Source: Comamonas terrigena NBRC 13299
GTDB lineage: Bacteria; Pseudomonadota; Gammaproteobacteria; Burkholderiales; Burkholderiaceae_C
Direction of reading: 5' to 3'
Assembly (NCBI RefSeq): GCF_006740045.1
Contig: NZ_AP019749.1
Location: 3,057,001-3,121,000, forward strand
Length of the DNA stretch: 64,000 nt
Shown here piece after piece: positions 3,887 to 13,821 of this stretch (positions are counted from its first letter, which is position 1; each line of letters begins with the position of its first letter). Made by a program: the position numbers and the translations under genes. Below the pieces are notes generated by a model. The model did no database searches, was not told the origin of the DNA, and saw only the letters and a program-made list of their open reading frames with translations.

Positions 3887-4542
3887 GTATGCACTCCTGC
3901 TGGTTCAATCGGTCGGTGCTGGCGCAGCACCGCTACGGGATACCCATGGGGCCGACCGCTGCGATGCCTGCAGCGCTGATCCCTTGGGTGCGAAGGCCCG
4001 GCTTCCACCATCCGCGCCGGGCATGGCCTTGCCACGTTGTCTGCGGCACACGGCACGCTGAGCGTGCCTGGCGTGGCTGAGCGCTGTTATGCGTATGCGC
4101 GCTGGCCTGCCTCTGTGCCCACCCCGCAATTCATCCCGAAAAACGTGGCGTTGTGGGATGCCATGGTAGTGCTGCAGACCTGAGCGGGGGCAAAGGTTTG
4201 TGACCGACTGCATCCGGCCCGAAGCCGGCCCTGCGGCCGGTCAACTTGTCCCATAGCGCGAAGGACCCAGAGCGGCTCTACACACTGCTCACACGGCCCA
4301 GTCCACCGCAGGTTGATGGGCATGGCAAGGCGTGAAACCAGGGGCAGTCGCTGCGAAGAGCGCCGTGTAATCACGGCACATTGCGGCCCATTGCGGGATT
4401 ACCCTTACAAAACAGTGACCAACATTTTCTTATTCCCGAACGCTATATCAACACCGATTGAATGACGCCTTAAACGTGTCCTTGCGCGCCACACCGCCCC
4501 GATGGCCGCCGCACAGGCACCGAAAAACAAGGAATAACAGTC
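3887..4542. other. Intergenic region with one copy of a dispersed repeat
   Basis: No convincing gene. It holds copy 1 of a dispersed repeat (about 4145-4232). The last 150 bases before hyuA are AT-richer (around 4390-4460) and probably carry its promoter, but no clear -35/-10 pair can be assigned. Confidence 0.6.
4145..4232 (+). repeat. Dispersed repeat, copy 1
   Basis: It shares two blocks with 12116-12202 in the same orientation. These are GTGGCxTTGTGGGATGCxATGG and TTTGTGACCGACTGCATCCGGCC-like sequence, joined by a less conserved spacer of equal length within a base or two. Both copies are intergenic. A short reading frame (VALWDAM ... CDRLHPAR) is shared in outline but contains a stop here, so a gene is not supported. 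Confidence 0.75.
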
Positions 4543-11890: not shown

Positions 11891-12223
11891 TTCCGGCTGC
11901 AACATTGGGTGCAAAAGGACATCGTTCCGGAGAACCATCAGCGGCTGAAGCGGGCATTTCCCCCGACGCTCAGGCTGAGCGGGCGATTCTGACCAGGTTC
12001 AGGGCACAGGCTCCATGAAGATAGGAACCAAGTGTGCCTGGAGTGGCTGAGCCCGCCCATGCACCTGCACCCCGGCCTCCACACCCTGTACACCGCGCAG
12101 CTCTCCCAGAATGAGGTGGCATTGTGGGATGCGATGGCAATGCGATGTATCTACGTGGGAGCGAATTTTTGTGACCGACTGCATCCGGCCAGAAGCGGGC
12201 GGTGGTTGCGAGTAAAAGCGGAC
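11891..12223. other. Intergenic region next to the integron array
   Basis: No gene is supported. It holds copy 2 of the dispersed repeat and ends directly at the outer attC site. A 67-codon frame at 12032-12235 reads through the repeat and is not judged real. Confidence 0.6.
12116..12202 (+). repeat. Dispersed repeat, copy 2
   Basis: Partner of 4145-4232 in direct orientation, about 8 kb away. The shared core is GTGGCATTGTGGGATGCGATGG and GTGACCGACTGCATCCGGCC. It ends about 20 bases from the outermost attC site. The two copies bracket the hyu / Bug / cupin / AraC / racemase genes. Confidence 0.75.
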
Positions 12224-12292
12224 GCTCAACCTTGAAGCTGAGCCGCTAGGGGCGGCTTGCCGACACGAGTCCGCTTGAGCGAATGGTTAGGC
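12224..12292 (-). other. attC recombination site 1 (outer)
   Basis: On the minus strand it starts GCCTAAC and ends GTTGAGC, 69 bp in all. The interior contains CGCTCAAGC and AGCTTCAAG arms and a central GCCGCCCCTAGCGGC hairpin, the usual imperfect-palindrome design. It begins one base after the stop codon of cassette gene 1. Confidence 0.88.
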
Positions 12293-12293
12293 C

Positions 12294-12896
12294 TCATAGC
12301 CTGTCGGGCCTGCCGGAAAGCCATGCAGAGAACTTCGCCTCCAGTTCTGGAACGCCACGAGAAAAGACGAAGATATCCATGCCTCCATCGTATGGACAAT
12401 AAACGTTCTTGGACGCTGGAGACACTAGCGTAACCATATATTCCAAATCATGGGCGATCTCTTGAACAAGCCGGTCGTAGAAATCTGGTTTCCACGTTGT
12501 AACCAGTGCGCGCGTGACAAGGACGTCGTCGTCTTCTCTCGCGACGGTCTCAGGGTTGACTGGGAATTCCAAACTAGCCTCTCGCAACTGCCGCCCAGCA
12601 ATGCTTTGCCGCGCATTCGTCTCGCGCCGGGACAGCGGGTATCGCGACTGATACGCATAGAGTTGCTCGCCGGGAACAAACAGCTCGCTAGCAATTTGGC
12701 AGTGACGAGAAATGACTTCGTGAACCTCAAGCTCAGACTCAGGGTATCGCTTGGATCCTGGGAGCGAATGAAAACGAATCCAGTTAGATCGCATGTACTG
12801 CCGAAGCGCATGGCCAACAGGTGCCACGTTTCCCATATCGGACTTCCACCAACTAAGCGGACTGCAATGCATTTCTTGAGGCCTAACGTTTGACAT
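12294..12896 (-). CDS. Integron cassette gene 1, uncharacterised protein
   Basis: A protein of up to 200 residues. The ATG at 12896 lies inside the neighbouring attC; an ATG at 12872 (192 residues), just beyond the attC border and after CAAGAA, is the likelier start. Recognisable stretches are WIRFHSLPGSKRYPE, HEVISRHCQIASELF, WKPDFYDRLVQEIAHD and VYCPYDGGMDIFVF, ending LSGRPDRL. I recall similar uncharacterised bacterial proteins with RFHSLP..SKRYPE and PYDGG motifs, but I cannot name the family with confidence. No signal peptide or membrane segment is seen. It sits between two attC sites, so it arrived as a mobile cassette. Function is not assigned. Confidence 0.82.
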   Translation of the reverse strand: MSNVRPQEMHCSPLSWWKSDMGNVAPVGHALRQYMRSNWIRFHSLPGSKRYPESELEVHEVISRHCQIASELFVPGEQLYAYQSRYPLSRRETNARQSIAGRQLREASLEFPVNPETVAREDDDVLVTRALVTTWKPDFYDRLVQEIAHDLEYMVTLVSPASKNVYCPYDGGMDIFVFSRGVPELEAKFSAWLSGRPDRL

Positions 12897-12952
12897 GAGA
12901 GGTGCTTGGAGGCCGTAGGCCGGAAAGCGTCCTCTCGATGGAAGGGTTAGCC
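12881..12952 (-). other. attC recombination site 2
   Basis: A 72-bp site between the two cassette genes. On the minus strand it starts GGCTAAC and ends GTTAGGC, with a central CCGGCCTACGGCC hairpin and flanking GAGAGG / CCTCTC arms. It begins one base after the stop of cassette gene 2. The ATG at 12896 of cassette 1 overlaps its end. Confidence 0.9.
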
Positions 12953-12953
12953 G

Positions 12954-13347
12954 TCATTCGATGTAAGCGAACATTCGATGCGGCCAAGACTTTGCTTGAC
13001 TACCGTACTTCTTGAAAAACGCATAGATGCTTGGCGCAGCGTATTCGAGAAATGGCGTGGCCATCACCACTCTCCTCTGAAAAATACTCCCCGACGGAAG
13101 CGTACTTCCCGTCTTCGGTCGCAAACGTGCCTGGCTTTGCTCCTGCAGACTCGCTGCTTCGTATGAACAGATCTTGCCAATGCTCAAGATCTTTCTCGCG
13201 CAAACCATCGCGGAAAAGACCAATGAACTTCAGTGCGTTCTCGACCCTCCGCTGACGAAGATTCTGAAGATAGGCCGCAAGGGCTACAAAGCCGCCCAGC
13301 ACAACAAAGAGCAGTTGCAACCAATCGCGGAGGTCTTTGACATTCAT
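12954..13347 (-). pseudogene. Integron cassette gene 2, small membrane-anchored protein with frameshift
   Basis: The start is MNVKDLRDWLQ, then one hydrophobic segment (LLFVVLGGFVALAAYL, about residues 12-27) and a basic NLRQRRVENA. A soluble region follows: KFIGLFRDGLREKDLEHW. The frame is correct to VGEYF, then diverges and stops at 13000. The next frame continues as QRRVVMATPFLEYAAPSIYAFFKKYG and ends MFAYIE at 12954. Reading the A5 tract at 13080-13084 as four bases gives one 130-residue protein whose stop lies one base from attC 2. That is the expected cassette geometry and supports the joined frame. Function unknown. Confidence 0.78.
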
Positions 13348-13350
13348 GAC

Positions 13351-13416
13351 GGCTAACGTACTTTAGACGGCACCAAGCCGCAGGCCATATCTGGCGTTTG
13401 CGGTCTAAATTGGCAC
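13351..13416 (-). other. attC-like or attI site next to the integrase remnant
   Basis: The minus-strand core GTTAGCC stands three bases before the cassette 2 start codon. Further out are inverted arms, TTTAGAC at 13362-13368 and GTCTAAA at 13403-13409 on the plus strand. The distal consensus box is degenerate (GTGCCAAT). It may be the attI junction or the attC of a lost first cassette. Confidence 0.6.
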
Positions 13417-13494
13417 GAAAAGAACGCGGAAAGGGGCTTGTAGCCAAGCTCTTCGGCATACATGCTGTATGAAAATAAAGTATTAAATTTAGCC

Positions 13495-13687
13495 ATGAAA
13501 CCCGCCGCCCCCCCCTGTGTTGCGCGCCACACGGTTGCGGGACCAGGTCCGTGAGCGAATTCGTTACAAACACTATAGCCTGCGCACCGAACAGGCCTAT
13601 TTGTGAAATGGCACGGTTTGCGGCATCGCGTGATATGGGGCGCGGCAGTAAGCCGATGTTTTTCAGGCCGTGCTGGCTAATGAGTGA
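13495..13687 (+). pseudogene. intI: Integron integrase (IntI) N-terminal remnant
   Basis: A tyrosine-recombinase fragment recognisable by [18 protein letters not shown] and EQAYL, which matches the conserved start of integron integrases ([13 protein letters not shown]). After a stop at 13604 the neighbouring frame reads RFAASRDMG. The first frame then returns with ADVFQAVLANE, matching the end of the core-binding region (EVEAFLxxLANER). A C8 tract at 13508-13515 separates the ATG at 13495 from this frame. There are several lesions and the catalytic domain is absent, so this is true decay rather than one error. Its orientation, opposite to the cassettes and starting beside the attI position, is canonical. 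Confidence 0.88.
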
Positions 13688-13821
13688 CGGCTTTCGAGCT
13701 TGTAGCTGGAGGCGGCTCAGGGTCGACAGCCGCCACCGCTGAAGGCTGCTGTCGGCTATCCACCGCCAGCATTGGCACACACGCAACCGAGCCGCTGCAG
13801 GATGCCAAGACATATCTCCAC

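Follow-up and report, generated by a model that had tools for sequence, protein, structure and literature searches.

Gillings reportedly described in 2009 a class 1 integron with MITE-like structures on either side, and the integron fossil reported here would be like it in having been mobilised by inverted-repeat structures without a transposase of its own. In a related case on an Acinetobacter plasmid the flanking MITE copies measure 439 bp, according to the accessible part of the report (PMC3934969), whereas the ends described here measure 48 bp and belong to a chromosomal integron unit. The Tn402-like class 1 integron, as far as the available text on it goes (PMC5460862), is likewise an integron of betaproteobacterial origin between inverted repeats, but it is flanked by Tn402 transposition genes together with IRi/IRt and we saw no transposition genes at our locus. 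For chromosomal integrons the accessible passages of a review (PMC8618304) give the sedentary condition as the ancestral state, and both there and in the available sections of a study on Xanthomonas (PMC12444791) chromosomal integrons are held to be sedentary, the integrons themselves not being mobile. The same sections of the Xanthomonas study describe pseudo-integrons and CALIN which go back to repeated inactivation of intI. Our locus is similar in that intI was killed by deletion or frameshift and a small stable array was left. It differs in that nearly all Xanthomonas intI genes are located at ilvD, on a platform which the sections at hand call ancestral (PMC12444791), whereas here the loci are mostly different and the inverted ends are common to them. 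An early survey of bacterial genomes found, in the part of its text that is accessible, that about one third of the intI genes are pseudogenes and that about a fifth of the hosts carry more than one intI (PMC2426708). We also find dead intI genes and several intI per host; unlike here, the accessible text of that survey describes no ends or inverted repeats (the word 'inverted' occurs 0 times). Such inverted ends on chromosomal integrons are described in none of the open-access titles and abstract openings that we searched, which cover the literature in part. Fossil integrons as such are a known and ordinary kind of locus. The presence of inverted-repeat ends on chromosomal integrons at many different loci seems to be a new variation on this kind, by which we do not claim that it is unpublished.

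The window, that is the whole stretch of 64,000 nucleotides from Comamonas terrigena NBRC 13299 which was analysed, contains at 12186-13726 one unit bounded by imperfect 48-bp inverted repeats (Table 1). Read from right to left on the minus strand this region consists of an attI, two cassettes and the distal end, and the plus strand right of attI carries the remains of intI.

Table 1. Features of the integron unit (positions are those of the window; R2, attC covariance model; R3, model of both ends)
Feature	Position	Strand	Remarks
Left (distal) inverted-repeat end	12186..12230	+	R3 31.4 bits (arm in training set); inner edge taken to be the displaced distal attI half
attC of cassette 1	12224..12292	-	R'' GCCTAAC, R' GTTGAGC; R2 32.6 bits, E 4.1e-5
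Cassette 1	12230..12886	-	657 bp between G/TT crossover points
Cassette 1 gene, DUF3885 protein, intact	12294..12896	-	Pfam PF13021 98.2 bits, cut-off 23
attC of cassette 2	12881..12952	-	R'' GGCTAAC, R' GTTAGGC; R2 35.1 bits, E 1.1e-5
Cassette 2	12887..13356	-	470 bp between G/TT crossover points
Broken cassette 2 gene	12954..13347	-	Frame 13000-13347 (115 aa) and C-terminal piece in another frame ending at 12954
attI and region between attI and intI	13351..13480		Core site GTTAGCC (13357-13351, minus)
intI remnant, first ~71 codons	13495..13690	+	19-bp gap, small indels; from alignment to the intact L103 gene
Right inverted-repeat end (at 3' end of former intI)	13680..13726	-	R3 35.0 bits (in training set)

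The covariance model for attC was built on a seed of 21 attC sites from relatives, none of them from the window. Both attC sites that had been proposed in the initial annotation are recovered by this model; the third match in the 64-kb window up to E 10 has 10.4 bits (E 4.3), and there are no others. Within the seed both sides change at 11 of 19 pairs, a number which none of 500 shuffles reaches, and this supports the seed structure. Folding as single-stranded DNA gives z-scores of -3.16 (plus) and -3.45 (minus) for the attC at 12881-12952 and of -0.59 (plus) and -2.44 (minus) for the one at 12224-12292, which is the weaker of the two sites. The paired R and L boxes of integron attC are present. 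On the minus strand, cassette 2 extends from the crossover in the third core site GTTAGCC to the crossover in GTTAGGC (12887-12881). Its attC starts with GGCTAAC, the exact complement of the cassette's own start TTAGCC, and the attC of cassette 1 starts with GCCTAAC, the exact complement of that cassette's own start TTAGGC. The last attC ends with GTTGAGC. Arrays in other genomes have the sequence past it conserved at their far ends, for which reason we regard that sequence (TTGAGC, minus) as the distal half of attI in a displaced position. Given that each R'' is the exact complement of the start of its own cassette, the array from attI to its far half would comprise two cassettes and no more. 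We consider it next to inconceivable that the locus is no integron at all and combines a chance likeness to the short attC ends with a fragment of some generic tyrosine recombinase. At gathering scores Rfam finds three tRNAs only in the window, which would fit with such a chance likeness (Rfam may hold no attC family); against it stand the independent attC model, the 88% match of attI and the 82% match to a gene which passes the cut-offs for integron integrases.

This gene belongs to an intact locus from another genus, L103, whose integrase reaches 453 bits with TIGR02249 (cut-off 265) and 451.5 bits with NF011946 (cut-off 435). An intact integrase in relatives, which the initial annotation had proposed to look for, is thus at hand. 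The window is 88% identical to the attI region of L103 over 128 bp (13353-13480), has 82% DNA identity to attI and the 5' region of intI (13353-13690) and matches the 3' end of intI with 87% (13682-13733), this last match being located about 800 bp further along the gene. The pieces of the remnant match relatives, and about 0.8 kb of the internal part is missing besides the small indels. The earlier description of a decayed integrase with stops and frameshifts is therefore correct as to the decay and the small lesions, and it omits the large internal deletion. The alignments with L103 also show attI adjoining a divergent intI remnant, and with the third core site abutting the gene of cassette 2 the divergent order of intI, attI and cassettes had been read correctly. 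With the 0.8 kb deletion and the indels the remnant does not constitute a functional integron integrase gene, and in the genome as a whole TIGR02249 gives three weak matches, the best with 79 bits, none over the cut-off. Therefore the cassettes are stranded, which had already been ascribed to loss of the integrase. The remnant is not of the intI1 type that defines class 1, as it is nearest to another intI lineage, that of L103; the match of the intI1-like genes of the genus to the remnant is limited to about 70 bp. Two clustered attC sites without an intact intI nearby correspond to the definition of a CALIN, which asks for at least two. Judged from its sequence the locus is a decayed chromosomal integron, a fossil rather than a working integron.

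Both cassette genes had been described as ending one base before an attC. For cassette 1 this is correct; in cassette 2 the frame at the end of the gene differs from the frame at its start. The cassette 1 protein has 200 aa when read from the first ATG and 192 aa when read from the ATG at 12872, which is the start used in the nearest relatives. Its frame is intact and it has 91 relatives, the best with 98% identity. In Paucibacter sp. Y2R2-4 a relative with 63% identity is found between two attC sites, in a stretch with 11 attC matches, and the DUF3885 family therefore travels as a cassette there too. The relatives of cassette 2 are 179-184 aa long in 14 of the 15 others against 115 aa here, so that about 45-50 codons are gone in the middle of the gene. 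As the identical 115-aa protein is represented by 5 sequences on 10 contigs, this deletion is suggested to be no slip of a single assembly. Named relatives of the cassettes and the integrase come from Paucibacter, Rhodoferax, Polaromonas, Hydrogenophaga and Acidovorax, genera that point to the Burkholderiales. Neither the cassette 1 protein nor a cassette 2 relative of full length matches any NCBIfam family. A defence role of the cassette proteins was considered and dropped, PADLOC giving no match for these same two proteins; the broken frame of cassette 2 gives one weak match (E 0.019). Among plasmid copies there is no near match of the locus, and the cassette 1 relatives found there all have less than 60% identity. 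Elsewhere in the own genome a lone cassette occurs (L181, C1:2796000-2801000, at 1679-2158), consisting of a 141-aa frame followed by an attC of 33.2 bits (C1:2798098). The frame belongs to a WapI-like immunity family (30.7 bits, cut-off 27), and the search for an inverted-repeat end at this cassette found none.

We suggest, with a probability of roughly 0.7, that the locus is a dead chromosomal integron which arrived as a discrete piece with inverted-repeat ends, gained two cassettes and lost its intI. The history would comprise these steps. The unit, made up of the left end, attI, intI and the right end with the imperfect 48-bp inverted repeats, would have come as a discrete piece. Its integrase could then have captured the two cassettes. 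Afterwards intI would have lost about 0.8 kb in the middle of the gene and accumulated indels. Because the gene is partly deleted and ridden with indels, the cassettes would no longer be excisable or shuffled from this locus. Cassette 1 with its DUF3885 gene would have remained intact and cassette 2 would have lost the 45-50 codons.

The ends of the unit can be delimited by comparison of copies. When 17 copies are lined up at the right end (..GGCGGCTCAGGGTCG), different DNA begins at the same place. In part of the copies a loose likeness continues for about 10 bases past the ends, and the exact termini are therefore uncertain. The left end starts with CGGCC in 15 of 16 lined-up copies (G245 differs). 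It abuts an attC match (E up to 0.3) in 14 of the 16, the exceptions being G011 and G027, and in other copies too it is located beyond the last attC. Left and right ends, both read inward, have one register over 48 positions and thus are terminal inverted repeats. A profile of the right ends places 15 of 16 left ends within the top 0.01-0.5% of the background positions, and the left end of the window, the weakest of the 16, within the top 1.6%. Conversely, a profile of the left ends places 19 right ends within the top 0.01-0.3%; the right end of G245, which is one base out of register, was excluded from this test. Such matching inverted ends suggest that devices of this kind once inserted in many places in related genomes. 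Among 10 copies with both ends we found no target-site duplication at a common offset, which is weak evidence because the copies have diverged, and no transposase was seen among the few frames listed or tested between paired ends.

Relatives of the region are frequent. In the genus 23 of 53 genomes match it, the own genome included, and the start of attI/intI is found in stretches of at least 200 bp with 71-84% identity in 11 of the 52 other genomes (G052, G012, G002, G011, G028, G041, G045, G017, G035, G019 and G043). A full-length integron integrase of this lineage is present in none of these 11; the integrases over the cut-off in G041 are at places other than its unit. In all, an integron integrase over the cut-off occurs in 11 of the 53 genus genomes, part of these integrases being presumably of the intI1 type (frames in L021 and L022). 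With the long query, blastn finds no match in integrons from other lineages (L046-L054), and with the intI start alone it finds two of 30 bp. The own genome holds two more fossils of the lineage (C1:430001-430525 and C1:2877953-2878955), and up to three units occur per genome (G052 and the own genome). Further relatives are found in other genera, and the loci are mostly different. A further unit, that of G055, has an open integron integrase frame of 335 aa (TIGR02249 453 bits) with four attC sites, a left end of 34.8 bits and a right end that is recognisable by eye only. In G052 two units of the lineage with the same orientation are separated by about 2.6 kb, and in one of them the C-terminal part of intI is still present (L068, G052:C1, 10905-17880).

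In an all-against-all comparison (matches >150 bp, E 1e-20) the copies have the unit in common and unrelated flanks in most pairs; seven pairs share a further stretch beyond the unit, including G041-G017 and window-G035. The right and left flanks of the unit in the window, followed in 19 genomes with the own genome included, have their relatives away from the fossils. The one exception is a racemase-like match in G035, which lies about 8 kb away from the fossil there and in another orientation. These comparisons bear on the simpler idea of a plain sedentary fossil which was inherited vertically, whose loci were scattered by rearrangement and whose ends are just the flank of attI and the 3' end of intI. 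Such chromosomally inherited fossil integrons are the rule in Xanthomonas according to the available sections of PMC12444791, and the units of G041 and G017 share a deletion junction, group together in the tree (86/77) and are located in the same neighbourhood, though not at the same spot. We nevertheless regard vertical inheritance alone as quite improbable, because the flanks are unrelated in most copy pairs, one genome can hold up to three units, both ends fade at one place and are alike as inverted repeats, and six genomes have the same two segments with no unit between them. The unit looks unlike a sedentary island tied to one place and is one of many with the same kind of ends at mostly different loci.

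The six genomes emerged when the unit of G017 and its flanks were compared with the 53 genus genomes. The flanking segments are about 2370 bp apart in G017 and 234-266 bp apart in G021, G023, G019, G015, G030 and G041; the sequence between them in these six is too diverged for reading the junction. The unit of G041 is found in the same neighbourhood as that of G017, at a different spot and in opposite orientation. In G018, the nearest relative of the G017 locus (93-95%), a left-end-like sequence can be seen by eye at the same place and breaks off. This sequence (L206, G018:C43) stops after about 20 bp, and the DNA after the break resembles, as we take it, the end of an insertion sequence. For the window's own locus the search of the 53 genus genomes, with the flanks followed in 19 genomes, gave no empty counterpart. 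For the window's own unit we infer an origin by insertion. The inverted ends would be what moved it, either by a transposase acting in trans or by recombination between the repeats.

We searched for the ends with model R3, which describes both of them. Both ends reach at least 20 bits in 7 of the 11 genomes (G052, G012, G002, G011, G028, G017 and G035), and in the other four (G041, G045, G019 and G043) one end does so and the other is weak or not found, many of these ends being training sequences. It is conceivable that the ends are no part of an integron device and represent dispersed palindromic intergenic repeats, REP or MITE-like, so that recombination between repeats and not transposition moves the integrons. 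End-like sequences free of attC do exist. They comprise L119 and L120, a pair in L117 around a 188-aa frame and 9 of 17 further stretches around matches in the family, and in some flanks an extra half-palindrome is found beside the end (G012, G002). The 17 stretches are mostly places not known before; the 8 others have attC, attI or intI, two of these 8 being the same sequence and one having a weak attC (E 0.065). They derive from a search of 349 family genomes under stricter filters, in which 34 genomes (24 of 141 genera) have an end match at <=5e-4, with 62 matches in total. The distribution of the matches speaks against dispersed repeats, and we hold this explanation to be rather doubtful. 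In the own genome all 4 matches at E <=0.1 (among the best 150 of 2305 candidates scored) are at the three integron fossils. In 16 chosen genomes there are 29 matches at E <=1e-3. Of the 14 among them that do not belong to the training set, 12 lie beside attI, intI or attC, a count that is biased since most of the genomes were chosen for having fossils. Three of four genomes without fossils of the lineage (G009, G031 and G040) have no match up to E 0.1, and the fourth, G021, has a weak one (E 0.004). Finally, such ends are absent from nine stretches that contain integrons from other lineages (eight have an integrase over the cut-off, and in one the integrase is in two pieces), some of these stretches stopping inside the array.

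The relationships among the copies are consistent with repeated loss. We gathered 25 copies and left five out of the tree (G276a, G333, G147, G343 and G182); G019a, G000c and G043, which are short or odd, are outside the gathered set. The tree of 20 copies (316 columns) is star-like around the intact integrase gene of G062, which is from another genus. The terminal branch of this intact gene is 0.014 long and those of the genus fossils range from 0.045 to 0.36. Since 12 of 17 inner branches have support below 80, we use the overall star shape alone and, from the sequences, read it as probably many separate deaths of one living lineage. One intI deletion junction is common to five copies (window, G052a, G012, G011 and G045), and two pairs of copies have other junctions in common. 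A single origin of the five-copy junction was considered and is disfavoured by the AU test, which rejects one clade of the five (p 0.0335) and does not reject a clade of the first four (p 0.452). Therefore the junction had two or more origins or the tree contains an artefact.

Taken further, a chromosomal integron lineage of the Burkholderiales could be mobile instead of sedentary, namely a transposon-like unit that ends in imperfect 48-bp terminal inverted repeats and lacks its own transposase. It would have inserted time and again, at many loci and in several genera, would have acquired cassettes and would in most cases have died through an internal deletion. We put this forward tentatively, as a possibility for which the odds are somewhat short of even. 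If it is true, stranded arrays would be the litter of mobile and not of sedentary integrons, and such ends could account for the relocation of chromosomal integrons without the help of Tn402. The common inverted ends offer something concrete and testable for the question of how integrons passed from locus to locus and from lineage to lineage prior to any association with Tn402, and the dead copies, some of whose deletions are shared and others separate, record how often units arrived and died. The ends and their spread over many loci thus are the part worth following.

Several further loci show end-like sequences in other arrangements. In L173 (G374:C3, 2852-4072) a one-cassette unit consists of an end of 19.2 bits, a 279-aa gene without Pfam match, an attC of 40.4 bits and an end of 17.4 bits, and has neither attI nor intI. 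In the same genome an IS110-family transposase (Pfam Transposase_20, 93 bits) adjoins an attC which runs into an inverted end (L175, G374:C2, 1981-3238). The ends of the L117 pair (G027:C31, 695-1549) are inverted and about 0.85 kb apart, with one frame inside and no attC by R2. A weak pair of ends (18.5 and 20.1 bits) surrounds genes for an MFS transporter and an ArsR-rhodanese protein, again without attC (L174, G045:C26, 2764-5043). The extra half-palindromes beside the unit ends are seen in L059 and L058, the flanks of the G002 and G012 units. In G002 the sequences outside the two ends resemble each other (GGACAGTCGC), and the unit looks as though it sat between two copies of one palindrome. 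In the window itself two 170-bp copies with 72% identity are found at 4061-4229 and 12031-12200, both with GACCGACTGCATCCGGCC, and the second copy continues into the unit's left end.
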